Origin: Ruminococcus flavefaciens | Lineage (GTDB): Bacteria; Bacillota; Clostridia; Oscillospirales; Ruminococcaceae | Direction: 5' to 3' | Length of the DNA: 44,450 nucleotides | Assembly: GCA_002373775.1 (NCBI GenBank) | Contig: DFJW01000054.1 | Coordinates: forward strand, 1-44,450 | Shown here: one piece after another, positions 2,013 through 14,475 of the stretch | Position numbering within the stretch: position 1 is the stretch's first letter | Layout: the number at the start of each line of letters is the position of its first letter | Notes under the pieces: generated by a model | Databases searched by the model: none | What the model saw: only the letters and a program-made list of their open reading frames with translations | What the model was told of the DNA's origin: nothing | Position numbers and translations under genes: made by a program

Positions 2013-3311
2013 ATGAAAAAAGCACTTACACTTGCAGTTTCCTCTCTGACTGCACTATCGCTCGTTTGCTGCGGAAATAAAGGCGATGATCCCGGCACAT
2101 CAACGAGTTCCGGTACAGTTCCTTCAGAGAGCGGCTCTGCCACTGAGGCAGCTGTTGCTGCCCCTTATCAGGATACAGCATCCCCTGCTGTTAGCATCGT
2201 CCCTCATGATGAAATGTTCGGGAAGTATGTATCCAACACTTATATCGCTACCGGCAGCAATCAGGTCACAGAATCGGCAGATCACGTCACTTACTGTGCC
2301 TACTTTCCGGTCGAGCAGTCCGGATCCCTTGAATACTGCTTCTATTTCTCGAACACCGTTGATTCCACCTACAGCAACGGCTTCAAGGCTTTTGCCGGCA
2401 GAACGGACAGCACATTCACTATCGAAAGCGCCTGTGTTTCAGCAGTTTCTGAAGTCAGCGATTCGCTGCCTGAGTCACTCACTCAGGTGACTTTCAGCGG
2501 GAACACGTCCCGGAAAACTGCTCCCGGAGACTGTTTCTGGAGCGATCCTGTCACAGTCGATGTCCCGGACGGCGGCTACCTGCTATGGGTATGGACTCTC
2601 ACCGGCGAGAATATTCCCTGCACTCAGATGTCCAATCTTACTAAAGCCGGAGCCTTCTACAACGGTTCTGACACCATTTCCTACTGCGATGAAGTTCCTC
2701 TCCCGAAACTCATCGGCGCTGACAGGAAAGCTAAATACCGCGTCGCTGCTATCGGCGATTCCATAACGCAGGGCTGTCAGACTGAATTTATGGCTTACGA
2801 ATTCTGGGCGGCACGCATCGCTCAGAAGCTGGGCAGCGAATACAGTTTCTGGAACTGCGGTCTCGGCTGGTCGCGTACCAGCGACGCTGCACTTTGCGGT
2901 GACTGGCTGGAACGCACGGCAAATTCCGATATCGTGATCGTTGCATTCGGAACCAACGACATCGTTTCAGGTGAGTACGGAGGTGACGGCGGAAACTCCG
3001 CTGCCGAGATCGACGCTTATCTGCGCAAAGTTCTCGACGCTCTCAAAGCCCATGGCTGCCAGATAATCGTATTCAATGCACCGCCGGAAGATTACAAGGA
3101 ACCCATGGAATCCGTCCGCACTGAATACAATGAGATGCTGAAAAAGACCTGCGAGGAGTACGAAGTGGACTATTTCGACTTTGCATCCCTGCTTTCCTCT
3201 CCTTCTGAACCGGCAAAGGCACTCTACGGCGGACATCCTAACGGTGAAGGCGGCGAGATCGTCGCGCAGGCATTTTTAGAAAAATACGGTACCTTCCTAA
3301 ACTGCAAATAA
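2013..3311 (+). CDS. Secreted SGNH/GDSL hydrolase lipoprotein
   Basis: This 432-residue protein starts with a lipoprotein signal (MKKALTLAVSSLTAL, lipobox around SLVC-C), followed by a Ser/Thr/Gly-rich linker of about 30 residues. A beta-rich domain of about 170 residues comes next. The C-terminal SGNH hydrolase domain carries the block I serine in AAIGDSITQG, block III GTND, and the block V Asp/His pair near GGHPNGEGGE. Such enzymes remove acetyl or other acyl groups from polysaccharides, and carbohydrate esterase activity on plant cell wall glycans is the natural guess for this organism. It would be anchored on the outer face of the membrane. It has its own promoter, a strong RBS and a terminator, so it is monocistronic. 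The substrate is not deducible. Confidence 0.85.
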   Translation: MKKALTLAVSSLTALSLVCCGNKGDDPGTSTSSGTVPSESGSATEAAVAAPYQDTASPAVSIVPHDEMFGKYVSNTYIATGSNQVTESADHVTYCAYFPVEQSGSLEYCFYFSNTVDSTYSNGFKAFAGRTDSTFTIESACVSAVSEVSDSLPESLTQVTFSGNTSRKTAPGDCFWSDPVTVDVPDGGYLLWVWTLTGENIPCTQMSNLTKAGAFYNGSDTISYCDEVPLPKLIGADRKAKYRVAAIGDSITQGCQTEFMAYEFWAARIAQKLGSEYSFWNCGLGWSRTSDAALCGDWLERTANSDIVIVAFGTNDIVSGEYGGDGGNSAAEIDAYLRKVLDALKAHGCQIIVFNAPPEDYKEPMESVRTEYNEMLKKTCEEYEVDYFDFASLLSSPSEPAKALYGGHPNGEGGEIVAQAFLEKYGTFLNCK

Positions 3312-3316
3312 CGAAT

Positions 3317-3361
3317 ATGACCGCACCCAAAGCGAAACGCCGGGTACGGTCATCTTTTTTT
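3317..3361 (+). terminator. Intrinsic terminator of the SGNH gene
   Basis: ATGACCG (3317-3323) pairs with CGGTCAT (3347-3353) and ACCC (3325-3328) with GGGT (3342-3345), with one C/A mismatch, followed by a run of T at 3355-3361. The T run is also the end of the converging minus-strand gene, where it encodes the lysines of its C-terminal KKKR. Confidence 0.85.
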
Positions 3362-3889
3362 CTTCAGTTTTGCCGCAAATCTGCGCCGGTATATGTTATA
3401 GCATGCGTCAAGGTTCACATCGTACATCAGGAACACCACATTACAGAGCGCAAGCATGGCGTATGCGCCGTATTTTCCGTAATCGTCAAACTCCTCCAGC
3501 ATCTCGTCCAGACCAAAGATATATACCGTGACGTAAAAGTATGACAGCACGCAGATGTTGAATATGATAAGCTTGATGAACGCCCGCAGTCCTTTTAATG
3601 GTATCTTCTGAAGATACAACCGGACTATGGGATAATGCCCGAATATCATGATGAATACAAGTGCTGCTTCCTTATCAAAGGTCACAAGAAGGGACAGAAG
3701 GCTGACCGCTATATATGTCAGGAAAGCCCAGCTCCTGCTGACTTCCACTGCTATTATCATCATCAGCACTCCGGCTATCATCGGCAGCAGCAGATAAAAT
3801 GCCGGAAGCACTCCGGCGAGGAACATCGTTACGAGGCATAGTGCCGAGACTATGCCTCCCAGTGCGACTCTGTAGCTCACATCTTTCAT
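3350..3889 (-). CDS. Small integral membrane protein, ECF S-component-like
   Basis: This 179-residue protein has about five hydrophobic segments. The N-terminal pattern ALGGIVSALCLVTMFLAG resembles substrate-binding (S) components of ECF vitamin transporters and related clostridial membrane proteins. No substrate motif is recognisable. The C-terminus is strongly basic (RRRFAAKLKKKR). Its start overlaps the stop of the SDR gene by one base (TAATG), so it is translationally coupled and is the last gene of the alaS unit. An uptake role is inference from fold only. Confidence 0.6.
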   Translation of the reverse strand: MKDVSYRVALGGIVSALCLVTMFLAGVLPAFYLLLPMIAGVLMMIIAVEVSRSWAFLTYIAVSLLSLLVTFDKEAALVFIMIFGHYPIVRLYLQKIPLKGLRAFIKLIIFNICVLSYFYVTVYIFGLDEMLEEFDDYGKYGAYAMLALCNVVFLMYDVNLDACYNIYRRRFAAKLKKKR

Positions 3890-4665
3890 TATTTCAGTGC
3901 CCTGCCGTTTCCGTCAGCTCTCTTCTTTGCCTTCTGCACATTGTATGTCAGTGCAGCCATGATCTTATGCGGAACAAAACGCTGACCTATACATGCGGCT
4001 TTTATTGAAAGCCCCGGAACCGCGAACAGCTTACCGGAAAGTGCCTTCTTCAGTCCATACTCCGCTGCGTACTCCGCCGAGATAGGTCTTGCACTGAAGG
4101 AAACTCCGGCGCGGTTGTTGAAGTTGGTATCTACAGGTCCCGGACAGAGTACTGTCACCGTTACAGCTGAATGGTCACGGCGCAGTTCTTCATATATCGC
4201 AAGCGTCAGCCTGAGCACATAATTCTTGGAGGCGTAGTAGGATGAGAGCAGAGGTCCGGTCATGAATCCGGCTGCTGATGCTACATTGAGTATCCTTCCG
4301 CTGTTGCGCTTCTTGAAATCCCTGAGAAAAAGCTTAGTGAGGATATGGAGCGCAGTTATATTTACTGAAAGCATGTTCAGTTCATCTTCAAGGTCGGTCT
4401 CTTCGAATCGTCCGAATATGCCGTATCCTGCATTGTTCACCAGCATATCTATGTCCTCGTTCCGGCATTCCTCATACACCCTGAAAACATCTTCGCGCCT
4501 GCTGAGATCTGCTCTGATCGTCTTTACATTAGGAAGCTGCTCTTCCATGGTCCTGAGCACTTCTTCGTTTCTGCCTGTGAGTATGAGATCCCAGCCCTTT
4601 GCACTGAGCTGCTCTGCCATTTTCCTTCCGATACCGGATGTAGCTCCGGTTATAAGTGCCTTCAT
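3889..4665 (-). CDS. Short-chain dehydrogenase/reductase
   Basis: This 258-residue cytosolic oxidoreductase has a classical SDR layout. The cofactor motif TGATSGIG is at residues 7-14, NNAG at 77-80, a serine in NVASAAG near 130, and the catalytic Tyr143-xxx-Lys147 lies in SSYYASKN. TGRN after the second strand suggests NADP(H) preference. GGAGG precedes the ATG, 11 bases after the DHHW-like gene. The C-terminal tail is basic (KAKKRADGNGRALK). The substrate is unknown. Similar SDRs are often labelled fatty-acid or 3-oxoacyl reductases, but nothing here proves that. Confidence 0.88.
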   Translation of the reverse strand: MKALITGATSGIGRKMAEQLSAKGWDLILTGRNEEVLRTMEEQLPNVKTIRADLSRREDVFRVYEECRNEDIDMLVNNAGYGIFGRFEETDLEDELNMLSVNITALHILTKLFLRDFKKRNSGRILNVASAAGFMTGPLLSSYYASKNYVLRLTLAIYEELRRDHSAVTVTVLCPGPVDTNFNNRAGVSFSARPISAEYAAEYGLKKALSGKLFAVPGLSIKAACIGQRFVPHKIMAALTYNVQKAKKRADGNGRALK

Positions 4666-4676
4666 ACTATTCCTCC

Positions 4677-5804
4677 TTAGTTCAATTTACTGAATAATCT
4701 GCTGTTTTCAAGAGATTCGATACTGAACAGGAAAAGTGTCTGTTCATAGCTGTTTATATCCACCAGACTGCTGAGGCTGCTGTCAAGCAGTCCGGGATCA
4801 ACAACGGTTATCTCGCTGTAATGCTGGATCAGGAACTGGATGAAACAATCTGCAAAGCTGTCCTTGATGAGCAGCAGTTTTTTGTCATTGTTCAGCGAGG
4901 TATTTATCACTGTTACCGGTGAACTTCCGCCCATGAAAACTTTGTAGCTGTCTCCGGTGCCAAGCAGAGACCTGTCCCCTATCTTCTTATTTTTCCACCT
5001 GCCTGAACTGTCAAGGCTGACACAGCTGACCACCGATACTCCGGAAGGGTATCTGTAGAGATCTATTATATCCGGCTTTATCCTGTCATACTGTGAACGG
5101 TAATAAAGCCCTCCGCGGTAATCGCTGCTGACGTGATCTATGGTGTATTTATCATAGGATATGGGGTTGAATCCAAGTTTCTGTATAGCAGTCCTGTAGA
5201 CGTAATATGCTCCGTAACTTGTCCATTTCTTATCACTGCGGTAATAGATGTAGTTTTCCTTCTGGCTGCGCAGGATATTGTACGCATCTATACGCCTTAT
5301 GCTCCCTGAAAGATGATCGCTGAAACGGTTTATTCTCCGGTTCTCCGGATCGGTCTGCATATACTTAGGCAGCATCTCGCCGTATATACCGGCTGATGTG
5401 GGAACGGCTGCTATATACACTGCTCCGCTGTAATTCTGCGCAAATCGGTTTATCTCGTAGGCAGTTCCGGAAAGATCGGATAATTCCGGACTTTCTGAAT
5501 CCAGCAGCATGTCATTGCCGATGTATACGCCGTTCACTATGCTCTCGCTCAGTTCGGCACTCAGCTTGGCGTTCATGGATATCCATGTGTCACGGGCTGC
5601 AAAATGGTCAGCCATGTATGCGGAAAGCTCTTCCGTCACGCTGCCGTCATACAGCGAATGGAACGACATCTCCGGAAGTGATGCAAGGTCTCTCTCCTCT
5701 TTTGAAGAGTGTCCCTCCTTCTCCGAGAAAAGCGTCCACAGAAATACAGACGATATGAAAACGATCATTAGTACAGCTGTCAGTTTACTCGATAATCTCG
5801 ACAT
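4677..5804 (-). CDS. DHHW/AlgX-J-like SGNH protein with DKKW in place of DHHW
   Basis: This 375-residue protein has one N-terminal membrane anchor (residues about 8-26) and an extracellular part. DHFAARDTW near residues 66-74 and LLIKDSF (Ser316) match the DHHW family, the exported partners of MBOAT acyltransferases that move acetyl groups to surface polymers (AlgX/AlgJ type). In that family the Asp and His of the D-x-H-W motif act with the Ser. Here the motif reads D191-K192-K193-W194 (codons gat aag aaa tgg), so the histidine is missing. The gene sits 12 bases after the MBOAT gene, the usual pairing. It may be a non-catalytic partner, or the chemistry may differ. Confidence 0.8.
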   Translation of the reverse strand: MSRLSSKLTAVLMIVFISSVFLWTLFSEKEGHSSKEERDLASLPEMSFHSLYDGSVTEELSAYMADHFAARDTWISMNAKLSAELSESIVNGVYIGNDMLLDSESPELSDLSGTAYEINRFAQNYSGAVYIAAVPTSAGIYGEMLPKYMQTDPENRRINRFSDHLSGSIRRIDAYNILRSQKENYIYYRSDKKWTSYGAYYVYRTAIQKLGFNPISYDKYTIDHVSSDYRGGLYYRSQYDRIKPDIIDLYRYPSGVSVVSCVSLDSSGRWKNKKIGDRSLLGTGDSYKVFMGGSSPVTVINTSLNNDKKLLLIKDSFADCFIQFLIQHYSEITVVDPGLLDSSLSSLVDINSYEQTLFLFSIESLENSRLFSKLN

Positions 5805-5816
5805 ATAATCGCCTCC

Positions 5817-7196
5817 TTACAGTCTGAAAAGTATCATTCCGGAACTTCCGGTGTATGACATCATTATAGTACTGAGTATGAGAAGTGCAAGAACGATCAG
5901 CGGTGAGGCAGCTGTCACTGCTGTCCGCACACGGTTCTTTCCGGAACGCAGCATCATGTTCCTGAACAGATTCGTGGATGCGTATATGCCTATCAGTATG
6001 AGCACGATATAGGATTTCAGCAGATACAGTGATAATTCATCCAGCAGTATACGGTTCCCGCCTATCATCGCGAACAGGTATCTGAAGGAATATGAAATGC
6101 TGCTGCCTGACAGAAATACTGATGCTATGAGCGTTATGATGTATGTGTATATCATGCCGGTCGCATCCATTATCTTCCAGTGTCTGAGCCTGCCTTCGAT
6201 AACTATCCCCGTGCCTATTATGAAGCCCCATATCATTCCGTTAAGGCTGAAGCCGTACCAGAATCCGAGGATGCCCCATGCGAATATCAGCGATGCCTTG
6301 CGTAACAATCTGCCTCTGAACACCGATGTCAGCGGCTTTGTGATATACCTTCTGAACCACTGCACTACCTGTACATGCCACCTTGCCGAGAAGTATCTCA
6401 CCCTTGAACTGAGCAGCGGATAGTTGAAGCTCTGCGGCAGACGGAATCCGAAACAGTAGCCGATACCTGTACCCATGTCCGCAAATCCGGAAAGCGTGAA
6501 GTATGCACACAGGAGATATGCGGTTATTCCCAGCCATGCCGTCAGCAGTGACATTTCCTGTACGTCCACACTGCGGACCGCTGTGTAAAGCATATAAAGC
6601 TGGTCAGCAAGGACAGCTTTCTTTACCAGTCCTTTTACGAATATAGTGAATCCTACTCCGATATCTTCAAGGTCGTTCCTCTTTTCGCGGAGTATCTTTG
6701 AGAACACCGAGTACCTCAGCAGAGGTCCCATTATTATACGCGGAAAGAACAGAAAATACAGCGAGAAACGGACTATGCTCCGGTCAGCATGCTCTTTTCC
6801 GTTGTATACATCCACCAGCATGCCTATTGCACCAAGCACCATGAACGATACTCCCAGCGGAAAGAAACCTTCCGGCACTCCGAGCAGCCGGCGCAGCCCG
6901 GAGATGTTCTCCGTCCTGAAAAGGAACAGCGTCAGCATATCGTATACTATACCGATAGAAAACGGCAGTACACAGACCTCGCCTTTCTTCCTCAGCCGGT
7001 CAGTCATTACAGCTGCGCAGTAATTCACAAGTGTAAATACCGAGACAAATCCGAGATAGTACAGACCGAACATACCGCAGAATACCAAACTGAGTACAAG
7101 CAGCACAGCATCGCGTACTTTTTTGGGCGATACATAGTTTATCAGCAATGAGACCGGCAGAAAGCCATAAATGAACAGCAGACTGCTATATAGCAT
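5817..7196 (-). CDS. MBOAT-family membrane protein (AlgI/DltB-like) lacking the active-site His
   Basis: This 459-residue polytopic membrane protein has roughly ten hydrophobic segments. It keeps the MBOAT landmarks FFPLGVSF, YFLFFPRIIMGPLLRY, and ARWH(274)..QWFRRYITKPL. The second landmark, normally LWHG..F..WG with the acyl-transfer histidine (His322 in AlgI), reads G-F-W-Y314-G-F-S-L-N-G-M-I-W-G. The codon is TAC, one base from CAC. MBOAT proteins pass acyl groups across the membrane to cell-surface polymers. The loss suggests an inactive or altered enzyme. The gene overlaps the RNase M5-like gene by 11 bases, has a good GGAGG site, and is followed by its DHHW partner. Confidence 0.85.
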   Translation of the reverse strand: MLYSSLLFIYGFLPVSLLINYVSPKKVRDAVLLVLSLVFCGMFGLYYLGFVSVFTLVNYCAAVMTDRLRKKGEVCVLPFSIGIVYDMLTLFLFRTENISGLRRLLGVPEGFFPLGVSFMVLGAIGMLVDVYNGKEHADRSIVRFSLYFLFFPRIIMGPLLRYSVFSKILREKRNDLEDIGVGFTIFVKGLVKKAVLADQLYMLYTAVRSVDVQEMSLLTAWLGITAYLLCAYFTLSGFADMGTGIGYCFGFRLPQSFNYPLLSSRVRYFSARWHVQVVQWFRRYITKPLTSVFRGRLLRKASLIFAWGILGFWYGFSLNGMIWGFIIGTGIVIEGRLRHWKIMDATGMIYTYIITLIASVFLSGSSISYSFRYLFAMIGGNRILLDELSLYLLKSYIVLILIGIYASTNLFRNMMLRSGKNRVRTAVTAASPLIVLALLILSTIMMSYTGSSGMILFRL

Positions 7197-7785
7197 TTTT
7201 GTCCTCCTTCAGCGCTTTTATACGTTCTGTCAGTTCTGAGGCATCCATCATCGTATTCAGCACTTCTATCAGTGCAGATGCTGACATCAGTGACGGCAGT
7301 CCCAGACTTTTCTGCAATTTCTGACGAAGCAGACTGCTTTCCCTGCCGCCGCTCAGACCAAGTTCATACAGAGTGGTCACTGTTATATCATGCTTTCTTT
7401 CATTATCGCCGGATTCTATGCCGGCTTTTCTGAAAGCCTCCCTTATGACATCCGCACTCACGCCTTCAACTCCGAGTTTCCCTTCTGCTGAGGGCTTTTC
7501 CTTGCGTTTCTCCTTGCCGAATATATCGGGTATGTACACGTTCCTGACATTTCCGCCGACTGCGCCCTTGATGTAGCCGCGTATGCGCCTTCCGGCACTG
7601 TCGGAATCTGTCAGGATGACTATGCCTGTAGTCTTTGCGTAATACCTTATCAGTTCCATTTTTTCCTTGTCCTTGAATATGCGGAAACCGTTAGTCACGA
7701 TAATCACTGCATCGACCAGAGAACTGAGTTTTATCTTATCGTACTTTCCCTCGACTACTATAGCCTCTTTGATACTTACCATCAT
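7186..7785 (-). CDS. rnmV: RNase M5-like TOPRIM protein (DUF4093 type)
   Basis: This 199-residue protein begins with a TOPRIM domain: the acidic residue in IVVEGKYDK (Glu12) and the D60-S-D62-SAG motif, both needed for Mg2+-dependent nucleic acid cleavage. RIRGYIK follows. The C-terminal half, beginning near KLGVEGVSADVIREAF, matches the extra domain of Firmicute RNase M5, which matures 5S rRNA in the 50S precursor. Clostridia may carry a canonical M5 beside ksgA as well as divergent paralogues, and this one sits in an alaS/holA context, so the symbol is provisional. ATG overlaps the holA stop (ATGA). A second ATG follows directly; GGAGG suits either. Confidence 0.72.
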   Translation of the reverse strand: MMVSIKEAIVVEGKYDKIKLSSLVDAVIIVTNGFRIFKDKEKMELIRYYAKTTGIVILTDSDSAGRRIRGYIKGAVGGNVRNVYIPDIFGKEKRKEKPSAEGKLGVEGVSADVIREAFRKAGIESGDNERKHDITVTTLYELGLSGGRESSLLRQKLQKSLGLPSLMSASALIEVLNTMMDASELTERIKALKEDKNAI

Positions 7786-8855
7786 TTCCTCCCGGAACTG
7801 CCTGTGAGCAGCATCTCTGCCACCATTTTCTCAAGCATTATCTTTTCGTCACCGCCGCTTGAATTCAGCTTGACCGCTGTATCACGAAGTATGGCTATGC
7901 ACTCCCTGAGCCGTCTGATATTCATTCTCGGACCACTTCTGTAAAGCTTGTCTATAACGAATCCGCGGCTGAAATATTCAAAATCCTGCTTTACTGTTTC
8001 TGCATTCTTTCCCGAGGACTTCGCCAGCTGGATCCTGTAGAGATCAAGGAAGGAATTTGTGATATTTCCAAGGACTGCACCACGGTTCTTTTTGTCCTGC
8101 ATAAGCTCATCAAGTGCAGCAAATGCGGCTTTTCCGTTCATGGCTACGACCGCATCTGCAAGTTCAAAAAACGTTGTCGCAGACTGACGGTGTACCATTG
8201 AATCTATGATTTCCAGTGTGATCTCACTGCCCTGAGTGTAGGCACACAGCTTGTCTATCTCATTGCGTATGGCAAGGGTGTCCGAAAGGCATCTCTCGGC
8301 GATCTCACGGGCGTTCGGAAGAGTTATAAGTCCTCCGCGTGCAGATACGGCTGCTGCAATATCCTTTGCCAGTTCCTGAGGTGTCTTTATGGCACATTCC
8401 GTGAGAACACCGTTTTTTGCCGCGATATCAGCTATCTTCTTGTTCTTGTCTGCGATCACATATGATCTGGTCTTCTTGTCATATTTCTTTTTGACCTCGA
8501 ATCCTGTGACGTTGAAAATCACCACCGTATGCGGCGGGATATTCTTCAGCGCGTCAACAAGCTGCTTTATATCATCCTCACGCTGTTCTTCGCAGTTGTA
8601 GTCGTTCACAAGTATGCAGTTATGCTCAGACATCATCGGCATCATTTCGGTCATGTCACGGAATTCTGATATGTCCAGTGCCTTTCCGTCAAGCCGGTTC
8701 AGTGCCAGTGCTTCGTCATCTCCGACCGCAGCACTTATTATCTTGTCCGTGAGCTTTTCCACTGAGCTTACGTCCTGTCCGAATATGTAATAGCAGTTGC
8801 TCAGTTCGCCTCGTTTAAGCTGAGCTTCAACTGCCTTTCTCTCGATCTGTGGCAT
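7782..8855 (-). CDS. holA: DNA polymerase III delta subunit
   Basis: This 357-residue AAA+-like clamp-loader subunit opens the beta clamp during replication in complex with tau/gamma and delta'. The N-terminal pattern NCYYIFGQDVSSVEKL, LNRLDGKALDISEF and HNCILVNDYN, then SDTLAIRNEIDKLCAY and the C-terminal LYRIQLAKSSGK and RECIAILRDTAVKLNSSG, fit HolA throughout. Length is normal for Firmicutes. It follows comEC with an ATGA overlap, a gene order (comEC-holA) conserved across Firmicutes, and is coupled in the same way to the RNase M5-like gene after it. Confidence 0.92.
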   Translation of the reverse strand: MPQIERKAVEAQLKRGELSNCYYIFGQDVSSVEKLTDKIISAAVGDDEALALNRLDGKALDISEFRDMTEMMPMMSEHNCILVNDYNCEEQREDDIKQLVDALKNIPPHTVVIFNVTGFEVKKKYDKKTRSYVIADKNKKIADIAAKNGVLTECAIKTPQELAKDIAAAVSARGGLITLPNAREIAERCLSDTLAIRNEIDKLCAYTQGSEITLEIIDSMVHRQSATTFFELADAVVAMNGKAAFAALDELMQDKKNRGAVLGNITNSFLDLYRIQLAKSSGKNAETVKQDFEYFSRGFVIDKLYRSGPRMNIRRLRECIAILRDTAVKLNSSGGDEKIMLEKMVAEMLLTGSSGRK

Positions 8856-10912
8856 CAGAGCCTCCTTAATCTGTATCCGCCGCCGCTTTCCGGCATTATC
8901 TCAAAATTGTTCATATCTTCCGCTTCCTTGTTTCCGAGATATATCACATTTTCCGCACGTTCCGGATCCTCGGACTTCCTGCCATAGCACACCACAAGTC
9001 CGTTTTCTTCGCCGGTGACATCAGAAGGCTTCTCAAATGTTATATCTGTATCCCCGTAACTGATAACGAGCCTGTCATCGCTGAAAAAGATATCGTATCC
9101 TTCACATGATATCATACCTTCACTGCCATAGCAGCTGACCGGTCCTCCGCCGAGGACTTCCGTTTCTCCGCTGACCAGCCACTCCTCAGTGGAGACGAAC
9201 TCCAGCTCTCCCTTATATGCCGAATACTGGGACTGTATGTCCTCCATAAGCACCAGATCCCGTATATTCCCGATATTGTTGCGCGAGAGATATTTCTTGA
9301 CATACATCGGCGAACGATAGCTGCCGCTTATGTCTATCACGTCTGTATTGCCTTTGAAAGACACAACTACCGCCGCATTGTTACCACTCCCAAGGACTGC
9401 AACAGTGAACGTATCATAGAGCATCCTGCCGTTCAGTGCGGAAAACAGGAATATAAGGCTGCATGAAAGCGAGGCAGCTGCTCCTGTATAAAGCCTGCTC
9501 CGGAATACTGCCTGCACCAGTATCACAGCAGCAGCACAGAAAAATGAAAACGCGACTACCCTTTCACTGCTCGCTGTAAAATACGTCGCACTTATCCTCG
9601 CGAGCTTATCGGATATGGTGAATAACATCTGTATCACTGCGCCGGCAAATCCGAGCAGGTCTATAGATCCGCCGGTGAACACATACACCACTCCTGTTAT
9701 CATACATACCGAACAAAACGGCACTATAATGACATTTGTGACCGGTGATATGAGTGATGTTTCATCAAAGTACTTCATGCTCAGCGGCATTATACAGAGC
9801 ATGGCGCAGAACGCCCCTGTCAGTTTGCTCAGAAACGATGTCAGGTATCCTTTATCAGGTATCAGCTCAGCCATATACGTTCCGAATACGCCTATGCCGA
9901 ACGTTCCGGCGACCGACATGAGAAAACCGCTGCTGTATATGACATAAGGATCAGCCAGACATATCAGCAGTACCGCTGCTGCAAGCGAATTGAAAGTGTC
10001 GTTCTGTCTGCGAAAAAGTCTTGCAGAATACATTATCTCCACCATTATTGCCGCTCTTATGGCTGATACCGGGGAGTCAGCCATGACTGTGATGACCGCC
10101 AGCAGCACGGTCACCATGGCAAAAGAGGCATACTTGTTCACTCTCAGCTTTCTCAGCAGCCAGATGAGTGCAAGAGCAATGACCGAAACGTGAAGTCCGG
10201 ATACTGCAAGAACGTGTCCTATACCGCATCGGTACAGCGATGTCTTTACATCATCGTCCAGCCCCTGCTTTTCGCCGAACACCATTCCCGCAAGGAAGTC
10301 ACCTGCATCTGCGCCGAGTGCTATGCGGAATTCTGATATCATCCGTTCACGGTATCCCATGATACCGGCTCTGATGCTCCGGCTGTCCCTGTGTATCACT
10401 TCTGCCGTCTCAGCTCTGTCAACTCTCAGAAATATATGCCGGGAACGTAGATCACCTCTGCTGTTATAGGCATAATCGCCCTCCGGTGCTGAAAACTCAC
10501 ATCCGCTGAGACGTATAGTGTCTCCGTATCCCACATCAGCATCAGCTGAATAATAGCTTACCTTTGCTGCTTTATCTCCGTCGATATGACCTTTCAGCAC
10601 ATAGGATGCATGTTCTCCGTCATATCTGCGTATATCGGTGACCACACCTTCAAACGAGCCGGTCTTTCCGTCGTGTGCAGCAACCGGTCTGTATACAGCA
10701 TAGGTATAGACTGTGCTTATCAGGACTGCTGAGCAGAAAAAGAGCGAAATGATGATATAGTCGTTTTTCCTGTATCCGGAATACCTGCCGGCAGCCAGAA
10801 ATATCACTGAAGCTGCCGCAAGTATGAGCAGCGTACCTATCCCGTTAAAAAAGGAAGCGAAAAACAATCCTGTCATATACGCTGCAGCAGCACCGATCAT
10901 TTTTCGCTTCAT
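8855..10912 (-). CDS. comEC: ComEC/Rec2-family DNA uptake channel, degenerate hydrolase domain
   Basis: This 685-residue membrane protein has N-terminal hydrophobic segments, an extracellular OB-like region (residues about 75-165), and the competence domain (GHVLAVSGLHVSVIALAL, DSPVSAIRAAIM, SLAAAVLLICLADPYVIYSSGFLMSVAGTFGIG) with many membrane helices. It forms the channel that takes up single-stranded DNA. The C-terminal part from about residue 500 follows the metallo-beta-lactamase fold order (VAVLGSGNNAAVVVSF, VIDISGS, IRDLVLMEDIQSQYSAYKGELE), but the HxHxDH metal motif is absent. It is therefore likely a dead or non-metal domain. AAGGA precedes the ATG, 10 bases after the phosphoribosyltransferase gene. 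Confidence 0.88.
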   Translation of the reverse strand: MKRKMIGAAAAYMTGLFFASFFNGIGTLLILAAASVIFLAAGRYSGYRKNDYIIISLFFCSAVLISTVYTYAVYRPVAAHDGKTGSFEGVVTDIRRYDGEHASYVLKGHIDGDKAAKVSYYSADADVGYGDTIRLSGCEFSAPEGDYAYNSRGDLRSRHIFLRVDRAETAEVIHRDSRSIRAGIMGYRERMISEFRIALGADAGDFLAGMVFGEKQGLDDDVKTSLYRCGIGHVLAVSGLHVSVIALALIWLLRKLRVNKYASFAMVTVLLAVITVMADSPVSAIRAAIMVEIMYSARLFRRQNDTFNSLAAAVLLICLADPYVIYSSGFLMSVAGTFGIGVFGTYMAELIPDKGYLTSFLSKLTGAFCAMLCIMPLSMKYFDETSLISPVTNVIIVPFCSVCMITGVVYVFTGGSIDLLGFAGAVIQMLFTISDKLARISATYFTASSERVVAFSFFCAAAVILVQAVFRSRLYTGAAASLSCSLIFLFSALNGRMLYDTFTVAVLGSGNNAAVVVSFKGNTDVIDISGSYRSPMYVKKYLSRNNIGNIRDLVLMEDIQSQYSAYKGELEFVSTEEWLVSGETEVLGGGPVSCYGSEGMISCEGYDIFFSDDRLVISYGDTDITFEKPSDVTGEENGLVVCYGRKSEDPERAENVIYLGNKEAEDMNNFEIMPESGGGYRLRRL

Positions 10913-10922
10913 ATATTATTCC

Positions 10923-11462
10923 TTACTTAAAAAACAGAGGAAGCTCTTCGAGGAAGATTATATCGTCCCTCTTTGCTGCGTCGCCTTCTGCAAGGACAGC
11001 AGCTTCGCCTGCAACTTTACCGCCGGCTGCCTCTGTGAGTTTCTCAAGAGCTATGACAGACTCACCTGTACTTATGACATCATCCACCAGCAGCACTCTC
11101 TTTCCTCTCAGCATTGCTGCCTTTTCCTGCGAAAGATAGAGCTTCTGGACTGCTTCTGTGGTTATGGACTTTACTGTTACTGCGATAGGATCAGTCATAT
11201 AAAGCTTTACCGACTTTCTCGCTACCACATAAGGCTTTCCGCACTGTCTTGACATCTCATAGGCAAGCGGTATGCCCTTTGACTCAGCAGTGAGTATCAC
11301 ATCGAAATCTCCGCACTTCTTCAGCAGTTCCTCTGCACATGCTATAGTCAGCTCAACGTCAGAGAACATGATGAATGCCGCTATATCCAGCTTTTCATTC
11401 AGCGGACAACGCATAAGCTCGCGTTCAAGTCCTGCGATCTTCATTTTGTATGTTTCAGCCAT
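10923..11462 (-). CDS. Adenine phosphoribosyltransferase-like protein
   Basis: This 179-residue type I phosphoribosyltransferase carries the PRPP-binding motif VLLVDDVISTGES and an upstream base-recognition region (VILTAESKGIPLAYEMSRQCGKPYVVARKSVK) close to that of adenine and xanthine PRTases. It would make a nucleotide from a purine base and PRPP in the cytosol. The amino end differs from standard Apt (it begins MAETYKMKIAGLERELMRCPL), so the symbol apt is withheld. It lies 10 bases after the HIT gene and 10 before comEC in the alaS unit. Substrate is undecided between adenine and other purines. Confidence 0.78.
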   Translation of the reverse strand: MAETYKMKIAGLERELMRCPLNEKLDIAAFIMFSDVELTIACAEELLKKCGDFDVILTAESKGIPLAYEMSRQCGKPYVVARKSVKLYMTDPIAVTVKSITTEAVQKLYLSQEKAAMLRGKRVLLVDDVISTGESVIALEKLTEAAGGKVAGEAAVLAEGDAAKRDDIIFLEELPLFFK

Positions 11463-11472
11463 AACTGTATCC

Positions 11473-11826
11473 TCACTCAGTCTTGCCGAGGGACTCAGGT
11501 CCCCAGCCCATTTTTACTCCTGCGAGCATATGGAAGTGGATGTGCTTTACTGTCTGTCCTGCATCGTCGCCGCAGTTGTTGATTATGCGGAAGCTTCCTA
11601 TACCTTCCTGCTTAGCTATCTTTGCAGCTGCTTCAAACACCTTTGCAACGAGCTGTGAGTTTTCCTCTGTTATCTGGTCTGCACCGCTGATATGTGCCTT
11701 GGGTATGATAAGGCAGTGGAAAGGTGCTATTGGTGCGATATCTTTGAATGCGAACACATAATCGTCTTCGTAGACCTTTGTGCTCGGGATATCGCCGTCG
11801 ATTATCTTACAGAATAAACAATCCAT
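11473..11826 (-). CDS. hinT: HIT-family nucleotide-binding hydrolase
   Basis: This 117-residue protein has the histidine triad His95-x-His97-x-His99 (KHIHFHML) near the C-terminus and the family N-terminus CLFCKIIDGDIPS with a KVYEDDYVFAFKDI strand. HinT enzymes hydrolyse nucleoside phosphoramidates, including aminoacyl-adenylates released by tRNA synthetases. That fits its position 18 bases after alaS. The family is small and conserved, and this copy looks complete. The two Cys of the N-terminal CxxC may bind zinc. Confidence 0.93.
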   Translation of the reverse strand: MDCLFCKIIDGDIPSTKVYEDDYVFAFKDIAPIAPFHCLIIPKAHISGADQITEENSQLVAKVFEAAAKIAKQEGIGSFRIINNCGDDAGQTVKHIHFHMLAGVKMGWGPESLGKTE

Positions 11827-11844
11827 AATGTACCTCCGCTTTTA

Positions 11845-14475
11845 TCACTTGATAATATCTGCAACGATGCTCTCTGCCTGTGCGAGTGCCTCGTCGATCT
11901 TTGCTGCGTCTCCTGCACCAGCCATAGCTCCGTCGGGCTTTCCGCCGCCCTTGCCGCCTGTTACTGCGGCTACGCTGCGGACGATATTTCCAGCATTGGC
12001 ACCCTTTGCTACAGCATCCTTTGTGCATACGCAATAGAATGTGCCCTTCTCGCCGACTGTTCCTGCGAACAGTGCTACTACTGCGCCGCCCTTGTCCTTG
12101 ACGCTGTCACCGAGTTTTCTCAGTGCATCGGGAGCTGTGCCGTCAAGTCTTGCCTGAACGAACTTTACGCCGTTTATCTCCTTGGCATTGTCAAAGAGAG
12201 ATGCTGTCTTAGCGTTAGCTATCTGCTGATTAAGGCTCTCAAGCTTCTTTTCCTTGTCCTTGAGTTCAGCTGTCATTGCTGCACACTTCTCGGGAAGTTC
12301 TGTTGTATTTGCAAGCTTCAGTGCCTTTGCAGAACGTGCGATAGTGTCCTTGAAACCGTTGAGAAGTCCGAGTACGCCAAGTCCGGTTACTGCTTCTATA
12401 CGTCTTACTCCGGCTGCAACAGAGCTTTCGGATACGATCTTGAAAAGTCCAAGCTGTGCTGTATTCGATACATGTGTACCGCCGCAGAACTCAACAGAAG
12501 GTCCGGCTGTTACTACTCTTACTGTATCGCCGTACTTCTCGCCAAACAGTGCCATTGCGCCAAGCTTTCTTGCTTCGTCGATAGGCATTTCCTGCATGGT
12601 AACAGGAATGCTTCTGAGGATGTAGCTGTTTACTATCTCCTCCACCTTTGCTATCTCCTCTTCAGTCATTGCCGAGAAGTGGTTGAAGTCGAAACGGCAT
12701 GTCTTGTCATTGACAAGCTGTCCTGCCTGATGAACATGGTCACCGAGAACTTCACGGAGAGCATTCTGGAGAAGATGAGCTGCTGTGTGGTTTCTCATAA
12801 TGGTCCAGCGCCTGCTGTCGTCAATCTTTGCGAGCACCTTGTCTCCCTTGGAGAGTGTGCCGTTCGCTACTGATGCGATGTGGAGGAAGTGTCCCTCGGA
12901 CTTGATAGTGTCCTCAACATTTGCATAGCTGCTGCCGTTGTCGATGACACCGGTATCGCCTACCTGTCCGCCGCTCTCAGCGTAGAAAGGAGTCTTGTCA
13001 AGCACGATGACTACATCATCGCCCTCAACAGCTGTCTGCACTTCTTCGCCGTCCTTGTAGATCGCCAGTATCTGCGCATCATCTGCTTCGAAGTCCGTGT
13101 AGCCTGTGAATACTGTTGCAGGTGCATCTATCTTTATGCTGTTGTCAGCCCATGATGAACCAGCCTTTGCAAGATGGTCTGCCTTTGCTCTTGCTCTCTG
13201 CTCCTTTGCAAGCTCAGTAAAGCGGTCGCGGTCAACGCTTATGCCCTTTTCCTCGCATATCTCAACTGTAAGGTCTATCGGGAAGCCGTATGTATCTGCA
13301 AGCTTGAATGCGTCATCGCCGGAAAGAACATTCTTGCCCTCTGCGCCGAGTTTCTCGATGAACTGTGTGAGAAGCTCAGAGCCTTTGTCGATAGTCTTTG
13401 CGAATGCTTCCTCTTCAACGCCGATTATCTTCTTGATGTAATCGCGCTTTTCAACAAGTTCAGGATATGCAGAAGCATTTTCATTTATAACTGTATCGCA
13501 CACTTCGGTCAGGAAAGGTCTTGTGATGCCGAGAAGTCTGCCGTGACGTGCAGCTCTTCTGAGAAGACGGCGGAGAACATAGCCGCGTCCGGAATTTGAA
13601 GGCTGTATGCCGTCGCCTACCATGAGTGTTGTGCTTCTGATATGGTCGGTTATGACACGGAGAGATACATCTGTCTTTGCATCCTTCTTATACTCGACTC
13701 CTGCTATGGATGAGATATGCTTCATTATGTTCTGAACTGTATCGACTTCGAAGATATTGTCCACGCCCTGCATTACGCATGCAAGTCTTTCAAGTCCCAT
13801 ACCTGTGTCGATGTTCTTGCTCTTCATTTCCTCATAGTGACCGTTGCCGTCGCTGTCGAACTGGCTGAATACAAGGTTCCATATCTCGATCACGCGGTCG
13901 CAGTCGCTTGCCTGCTCGAAGTTCTCGAAAGGTCCGTATGCCTCTCCGCGGTCGAAGTGGATCTCAGAACATGGACCACAGGGACCTGAGCCGTGCTCCC
14001 AGAAGTTATCCTTCTTGCCGAGACGGATTATCCTGTCATGAGGTATACCTATCTTGTTTTCCCAGATCTGCTCTGCTTCATCGTCGCTCTCGAATATAGT
14101 TATCCAGAGACGGTCAGCAGGTATCTCCAGTGTCTTTGTAAGGAATTCCCACGCCCACTCGATAGCCTCGTTCTTGAAATAATCACCGAAAGAGAAATTA
14201 CCGAGCATCTCGAAATATGTACCGTGACGTGCAGTCTTGCCAACACTCTCGATATCGGGAGTTCTGATACACTTCTGGCAGGTAGTGACTCTCTTGTTGG
14301 GAGGTGTAGCCTGTCCGAGGAAGAATTTTTTAAGAGGAGCCATACCTGAATTGATGAGCAGAAGGCTCTTGTCGCCCTGAGGTACAAGAGATGCGCTCGC
14401 CATTCTTGTATGGTTCTTGCTCTCGAAGAACGAGAGATACTTTTCACGAAGATCATTAAGACCTGTCCACTGCAT
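11845..14475 (-). CDS. alaS: Alanyl-tRNA synthetase
   Basis: This 876-residue class II synthetase attaches alanine to tRNA-Ala. The catalytic core shows NHTRMASASLVPQGD, LINSGMAPLKKFFLG, RVTTCQKCIRTPDIESVGKT and FEMLGNFSFGDYFK. The editing domain has the metal-binding HTAAHLL, with the second site in CGGTHVSNTAQLG. The C-terminal C-Ala domain has KGGGKPDGAMAGAG. The start is ATG at 14475 with AAAGGAG upstream. The open frame continues 52 codons further up, but that stretch is the T-box leader and is not coding. It is the first gene of a ten-gene unit and is controlled by the leader. Confidence 0.97.
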   Translation of the reverse strand: MQWTGLNDLREKYLSFFESKNHTRMASASLVPQGDKSLLLINSGMAPLKKFFLGQATPPNKRVTTCQKCIRTPDIESVGKTARHGTYFEMLGNFSFGDYFKNEAIEWAWEFLTKTLEIPADRLWITIFESDDEAEQIWENKIGIPHDRIIRLGKKDNFWEHGSGPCGPCSEIHFDRGEAYGPFENFEQASDCDRVIEIWNLVFSQFDSDGNGHYEEMKSKNIDTGMGLERLACVMQGVDNIFEVDTVQNIMKHISSIAGVEYKKDAKTDVSLRVITDHIRSTTLMVGDGIQPSNSGRGYVLRRLLRRAARHGRLLGITRPFLTEVCDTVINENASAYPELVEKRDYIKKIIGVEEEAFAKTIDKGSELLTQFIEKLGAEGKNVLSGDDAFKLADTYGFPIDLTVEICEEKGISVDRDRFTELAKEQRARAKADHLAKAGSSWADNSIKIDAPATVFTGYTDFEADDAQILAIYKDGEEVQTAVEGDDVVIVLDKTPFYAESGGQVGDTGVIDNGSSYANVEDTIKSEGHFLHIASVANGTLSKGDKVLAKIDDSRRWTIMRNHTAAHLLQNALREVLGDHVHQAGQLVNDKTCRFDFNHFSAMTEEEIAKVEEIVNSYILRSIPVTMQEMPIDEARKLGAMALFGEKYGDTVRVVTAGPSVEFCGGTHVSNTAQLGLFKIVSESSVAAGVRRIEAVTGLGVLGLLNGFKDTIARSAKALKLANTTELPEKCAAMTAELKDKEKKLESLNQQIANAKTASLFDNAKEINGVKFVQARLDGTAPDALRKLGDSVKDKGGAVVALFAGTVGEKGTFYCVCTKDAVAKGANAGNIVRSVAAVTGGKGGGKPDGAMAGAGDAAKIDEALAQAESIVADIIK

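Follow-up and report, generated by a model that had tools for sequence, protein, structure and literature searches.

What does an acyltransferase module do once both of its proteins have lost residues on which acyl transfer depends? The question is raised by two genes lying side by side on the minus strand of a 44,450-nucleotide contig (DFJW01000054.1, Ruminococcus flavefaciens). The whole contig is called the window here, and it belongs to a Ruminococcus-like genome that is 87% complete with 5.8% contamination. One gene encodes a membrane-bound O-acyltransferase (MBOAT) protein, the other a DHHW protein of the SGNH type. The initial annotation of this DNA had noted the replacement of a catalytic His in each protein and had read it as a joint loss of acyl transfer, or a shift to another role, rather than as decay. 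This interpretation was supported, the new role itself staying conjectural, and the pattern is broader than had been proposed: it is clade-wide, it includes the shuttle Tyr of the MBOAT protein and the oxyanion Arg of its partner, and it arose at least twice. The folds and families involved are already known; our searches of open-access literature brought up no paper on catalytically dead bacterial MBOAT-SGNH pairs, and hence none on a conserved pair of repeated origin in which both partners are disabled. The two genes and their altered sites are the following.

4677..5804, minus strand: DHHW (SGNH-type) partner, 375 aa, N-terminal helix at residues 2-26, catalytically degenerate; open frame
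4788..4799, minus strand: D336-P-G-L339 of the partner, in place of the D-x-R-Y that bears the oxyanion Arg
4857..4865, minus strand: K314-D315-S316 of the partner, former nucleophile block, Ser kept in the window copy
5223..5234, minus strand: D191-K192-K193-W194 of the partner, in place of D-H-H-W (catalytic Asp and His)
5817..7196, minus strand: MBOAT protein, 459 aa, catalytically degenerate; open frame
5820..5837, minus strand: C-terminus M-I-L-F-R-L of the MBOAT protein (which ends GMILFRL), in place of the acyl-shuttle hexapeptide FxYxxF
6255..6257, minus strand: Tyr314 codon (TAC), in place of the essential MBOAT His, from the alignment and homologue counts below
6375..6389, minus strand: S-A-R-W-H (MBOAT residues 270-274), in place of the W-R-R-W-H of canonical relatives

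Both frames are open and the genes are of full length, as initially described. The MBOAT protein matched the Pfam MBOAT family with 51.6 bits (cut-off 27), which places it in the MBOAT fold, and its partner matched Pfam DHHW (PF14286) with 126.1 bits (cut-off 25); the D-H-H-W motif that names the latter family is absent from this partner, which has D-K-K-W instead. A search of NCBIfam left the DHHW partner without a match and linked the MBOAT protein only to DltB, below the threshold (98 bits against a cut-off of 375).

When the MBOAT protein was aligned with the DltB structures 6bug and 8jem, Tyr314 fell on the His of the GFWH motif, whose counterpart in DltB, His336, is given as the active residue in the available text of PMC11035591. 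The initial claim that Tyr (TAC) occupies the essential His position was thus borne out by the DltB alignment, and also by the homologues, since position 314 is Tyr in all 120 proteins listed of the 258 found and His in none. The same holds for 78 of 80 named genus loci taken from genome contigs, mostly of Ruminococcus flavefaciens and other Ruminococcus; of the remaining two, one has Phe (L118) and one belongs to a contig that ends inside the MBOAT gene (L114). In a second homologue set (119 new proteins listed), Tyr314 occurred without the shuttle motif in 94 and His occurred in 22, 21 of these with the shuttle motif; Leu was found in one protein, and two were uncovered at this position.

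The acyl shuttle is lost as well. In PatA, the MBOAT protein hands the acetyl group to a Tyr in the C-terminal hexapeptide FxYxxF; auto-acetylation requires both this Tyr and the His, and PatB is able to use the acetylated peptide, according to the part of PMC12148441 at hand. The hexapeptide was present in 54 of 56 canonical MBOATs encoded at the same chromosomal site in other genera, both misses being genes cut at contig ends. It was absent from all 16 degenerate MBOATs with this synteny, from the 80 named loci (one of them cut) and from the 120 listed homologues. Similarly, the motif W[RKT][RKN]WH was found in 56/56 canonical syntenic MBOATs, in 0/16 degenerate ones of the same set and in 0/120 listed homologues, and its last residue, the second active-site position (274), is Asn in all 11 degenerate rows outside the window's own genus (g1). 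The MBOAT core residues W221, S236, G237, D240, W273, W280, W313 and E334 are the same in canonical and genus rows.

For the DHHW partner, the D-K-K-W reported initially in place of D-H-H-W was confirmed by alignment with the TDHHW motifs of 4nzk and of Bacillus cereus PatB1 (BcPatB1). Among the 120 homologues listed of 318 found, Asp191 is invariant and position 193 is Lys (112) or Arg (8), never His; in the 78 named loci in which the partner was found, Asp191 is again present throughout, with Lys193 in 69 and Arg in 9. The Ser-His-Asp triad of the window partner is therefore incomplete, Asp191 and Ser316 being present with Lys193 in place of His. The initial statement that Ser316 and Asp191 remain is correct for the window, and for Asp191 in the relatives, but Ser316 is kept in only 86/120 listed homologues and 41/78 named loci; it drifts, and cannot be counted among the family's fixed catalytic residues. 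The oxyanion Arg is absent from all 78 named genus loci. In BcPatB1, replacement of this Arg of D-x-R-Y by Ala abolished activity, as stated in the accessible section of PMC9487903.

A single-genome accident or a sequencing error was rejected, as both changes are present throughout the genus, and chance is likewise ruled out: the two changes together are a genus-wide family trait. The co-occurrence in relatives anticipated by the initial annotation was thus found, and within the genus the relatives do not keep both His.

The same site was then compared in its canonical and degenerate states, with the following neighbours as markers.

3350..3889, minus strand: 179-aa protein (MEM179), downstream of the SDR gene throughout the genus; no Pfam match
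3889..4665, minus strand: short-chain dehydrogenase (SDR), downstream of the pair throughout the genus; Pfam adh_short
7186..7785, minus strand: Toprim and DUF4093 protein, upstream syntenic marker, upstream of MBOAT in relatives; Pfam DUF4093, 72.8 bits
7782..8855, minus strand: HolA (DNA polymerase III delta), syntenic marker; Pfam DNA_pol3_delta
8855..10912, minus strand: ComEC-like competence protein, syntenic marker; Pfam Competence, 153.4 bits

The DUF4093 gene and the start of the MBOAT gene overlap by 11 bases. Of the 80 named genus loci, 65 show the full series HIT-PRTase-ComEC-HolA-DUF4093-MBOAT-DHHW-SDR-MEM179, many of the others being short contigs. DHHW comes next after MBOAT in 78, one exception being L114, which ends in the MBOAT gene; these figures were read from gene-order strings, a strict count of non-overlapping adjacency (39/80) being an artefact of overlapping stop-to-stop frames. 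The other exception (L062, G304:C3) is rearranged, with the DHHW gene about 9 kb from the MBOAT gene on the other strand and its frame still open. A further 80 loci, almost all of them outside the genus but within the family, were picked for a strong MBOAT match or for MBOAT beside DUF4093, so that they demonstrate a shared site and not a frequency: DUF4093, MBOAT and DHHW stand together in 68, seven have no DUF4093, four end before DHHW, and L217 has DUF4093 without the pair.

Seventy-nine pairs were scored (the 68 syntenic ones, 10 that we chose among the 80 named loci, and the window). The 52 canonical pairs, from 30 other genera, keep His314, the shuttle Tyr, His193, Ser316 and Arg338 without exception. 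The 27 degenerate pairs belong to five genera (g1, g51, g52, g93 and g38); none of them keeps the shuttle Tyr or Arg338, one keeps His314, three His193, 14 Ser316 and 26 Asp191. Position 193 is Asn, Ser or Met in g93, and Tyr at 314 occurs both in the Ruminococcus group and in g93. In the three g52 pairs whose partner keeps its His, the Arg is always absent and the Ser is absent in two. An informative intermediate is L181 (g38), where WHG is kept, the shuttle Tyr is lost and the partner is broken at His, Ser and Arg.

How often these elements were lost was followed on a tree of the flanking genes (ComEC, HolA and DUF4093, 82 rows, LG+G4). This tree contains three state changes, all forced by starred branches: g1+g51+g52 (98*), g93 beside canonical g136 (99*), and g38 beside canonical g69 (96*). 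A mixture-model tree of 43 chosen rows also gave three changes, with g38 joined to g69 at 87. In approximately unbiased (AU) tests on the flanking genes, for which the groups were defined after the tree was seen, a single clade of all degenerate rows was rejected (p 3e-42), as was the joining of g93 (p 1e-53) or of g38 (p 3e-7) to the Ruminococcus group; a joint origin of g93 and g38 was not rejected (p 0.064). Hence two separate losses are forced, and the catalytic elements were lost at least twice, probably three times. Parsimony puts one loss no later than the ancestor of g1+g51+g52. The MBOAT and DHHW trees built alone group the canonical rows, which gives one change, with long branches present. 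For the pair, vertical placement was not rejected by AU tests and even scored higher (log-likelihood +33, +21 and +22). A single origin with later transfer of the pair was therefore set aside, given that the flanking genes reject one degenerate clade and the pair allows vertical descent. In the flanking-gene tree, a record titled Alistipes senegalensis (L091) falls inside Ruminococcus and is probably a mislabelled metagenome-assembled genome.

The ratio of nonsynonymous to synonymous substitution rates (dN/dS) of the degenerate pair genes was about 0.10 in close genus pairs, compared with 0.045 and 0.068 for the flanking genes of the same pairs; in canonical pairs the values were 0.061 for MBOAT and 0.10 for the flanks. 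Purifying selection on the degenerate pair is thus weaker than on its neighbours, yet not lost: dN/dS is low, in keeping with the initial reading, and the relaxation is a relative one. The degenerate proteins lie on longer branches than their canonical orthologues. Structure prediction gave intact folds for both proteins. The pair is present in 33 of 36 genus genomes; the remaining three (64-86% complete) lack both genes and also a DUF4093 match.

Other MBOAT copies in the same cells are of the usual type. The window genome contains three MBOAT paralogues, all with WHG and FxYxxF, so that a general loss of the His in the MBOATs of this genome was rejected. One of them (locus L122) belongs to an intact-looking DHHW-type pair, with WHG, the shuttle motif, TDHHW, KDS and DIRY; judged by motif, the paralogues may be active. 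The third paralogue (L121, 4671-6275) has WHG and FxYxxF with no recognised DHHW gene in the 10 kb covered. A further MBOAT match was found in 32 of the 33 genus genomes with the degenerate pair, the exception being 66% complete. In a search of the family (E 1e-40, counted by hand), at least two MBOAT matches were found in 10 of 11 degenerate genomes outside g1, compared with 35 of 56 canonical ones, an excess that is suggestive, given kinship and thresholds.

Every known step of the reaction (His loading, Tyr shuttle, Ser-His-Asp with the oxyanion Arg) is without at least one residue needed in the systems studied, and from this we infer that the pair would carry out no acyl transfer. The MBOAT core residues and both predicted folds are kept, which points to a binding role. 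It is highly probable, in our judgement, that the pair is non-catalytic and under selection. The account that we favour, with a fair degree of confidence, is that of a conserved pseudo-acyltransferase pair, retained as a membrane complex without catalysis and perhaps regulating active paralogues. Less firmly, and by analogy, the pair may work by binding, either as a scaffold at the membrane or surface or by competing with, and so regulating, the active MBOAT-SGNH pairs of the cell; such a role beside the active pairs is the mechanism that we would put first, although tentatively. In the ancestral module, acetyl (or another acyl) would pass from CoA via the MBOAT His to the C-terminal MBOAT Tyr; the DHHW partner would then transfer it, at its Ser-His-Asp site, to a surface polymer. 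The Ruminococcus lineage exchanged the MBOAT His for Tyr and lost the shuttle Tyr motif, together with the catalytic His, the oxyanion Arg and often the Ser of the partner, and one or two other lineages of the family underwent such losses separately; both membrane-anchored folds were retained together at one locus under purifying selection. The former Asp-His dyad, now Asp-Lys/Arg in the genus, would suit a structural salt bridge, and the Tyr may fill the MBOAT site.

Several observations weigh against this account. The losses are not all-or-none, L181 keeping the MBOAT His (WHG) and three g52 pairs the DHHW His. Constraint is relaxed: in the same pairs, the degenerate MBOAT has roughly double the dN/dS of HolA, and canonical MBOAT is below its own flanks. 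Two MBOAT copies are split between frames (L115, G004). A Ser-Lys pair is able to catalyse in other enzymes, and weak or altered chemistry is conceivable for the window copy, which keeps Ser316 and Asp191. Finally, replacement of the His or Asp in BcPatB1 merely reduced activity, and R359K kept some, in the available portion of PMC9487903; the change of His to Lys is thus weak evidence when taken alone, and the case rests on the summed losses.

The alternative that survives best, although we find it unlikely, is a changed chemistry, in which Tyr314 and the Asp-Lys-Ser of the partner would form a new active site with another mechanism or acceptor. It would account for the near invariance of Tyr314 in the genus (120/120 listed homologues, 78/80 loci), for its presence also in g93, where the flanking-gene trees place an independent loss, and for Asp191 with a basic residue at 193 in 120/120 listed homologues. 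However, of the 78 named loci only 41 retain Ser316 and none the oxyanion Arg, the shuttle and WRRWH motifs are absent, L118 has Phe at 314 and g93 has Asn, Ser or Met at 193; in a comparison of columns, no new shared set of catalytic-type residues was seen across the degenerate genera. Slightly less likely still is a role independent of acylation, with the MBOAT barrel now a channel or a device handling lipid or polymer and DHHW its binding protein. Conserved MBOAT core residues, the acyl-handling elements being gone, would fit such a device, as would the tunnels of DltB, which reach the active site from both faces in the accessible text of PMC11035591; against it, the exchange of His for Tyr would rather be expected to fill the site, and the genomic neighbours HolA, ComEC and DUF4093 give no clue to a substrate. 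Least likely is a slowly decaying relic, functionless and disappearing after active paralogues took over, for although active-looking paralogues, the dN/dS above that of flanking genes, the longer branches, the two split copies and the three genomes without both genes would suit it, the dN/dS is about 0.10, the same residue stands at 314 in 120/120 listed homologues, the pair is retained in 33/36 genus genomes (the other three being incomplete and without a DUF4093 match), and a loss at or before the g1+g51+g52 ancestor is too old for unselected frames to survive.

Elsewhere in the window, a scan of 3200-12500 gave 13 promoter sites (13.2 in shuffles) and 8 terminator sites (6.1 in shuffles); as these counts are near those of the shuffles, no claim about transcription units is based on them. 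A putative lipoprotein with a GDSL (SGNH) lipase domain is encoded near the pair on the opposite strand (2013-3311); its relative adjoins only 1 of the 80 named genus loci, which places it outside the conserved block. At the contig edge, a partial recombinase-like protein (67-786 and 919-1005; Pfam Zn_ribbon_recom) lies beside a tRNA-Leu (anticodon cag), possibly the end of an integrated element.

The non-catalytic reading matters for annotation and experiment. Some source annotations name an AlgI-like O-acetyltransferase, from which one would expect the pair to acetylate, and it probably does not. In this bacterial clade the MBOAT protein has lost its His and its shuttle Tyr, and the partner key residues of its active site, with both genes still whole and linked. 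The repeated loss makes testable what an acyltransferase complex does without acyl transfer, and ready-made controls are at hand in the canonical orthologues that other genera carry at this site.

Among known systems, PatA1/PatB1 of Bacillus cereus and CcsH/CcsI of Clostridioides are MBOAT and DHHW pairs like that of the window, CcsH/CcsI being likened as a pair type and the residues being compared with PatB1 alone. PatB1 keeps Ser-His-Asp and the Arg of DxRY in the part of PMC9487903 available, whereas in the window pair that His and Arg are missing, as are the His and the shuttle Tyr of the MBOAT protein. EUBSIR_00411, a DHHW protein of Eubacterium siraeum (PDB 4nzk), also keeps TDHHW, KDS and DIRY in the alignment, unlike the window partner. 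PatA/PatB, AlgI/AlgX and DltB/DltX/DltD are acyl-shuttle systems; the window MBOAT has neither the FxYxxF nor the His that PatA requires, as far as the text at hand goes (PMC12148441). There is also a likeness in state to HHATL, a mammalian MBOAT whose His is replaced by Leu and which is reported in the accessible part of PMC5831804 to bind Shh, to lower its palmitoylation and to be a negative regulator of HHAT: in both cases an MBOAT without its His shares a genome with homologues that are active or, judged by motif, look so. HHATL comes from animals, has Leu and, in that part of the account (PMC5831804), no SGNH partner, whereas the window has Tyr and a partner that is disabled too, and regulation is proposed here by analogy. 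As a bolder idea, possible rather than likely, a whole machine for polymer acylation, membrane donor and surface transferase alike, may have turned at least twice, at one chromosomal site, into a non-catalytic device of two proteins that would control or replace the active pairs. It would be a bacterial analogue of HHATL with two pseudoenzymes instead of one, and the same change of His to Tyr would have been reached independently.
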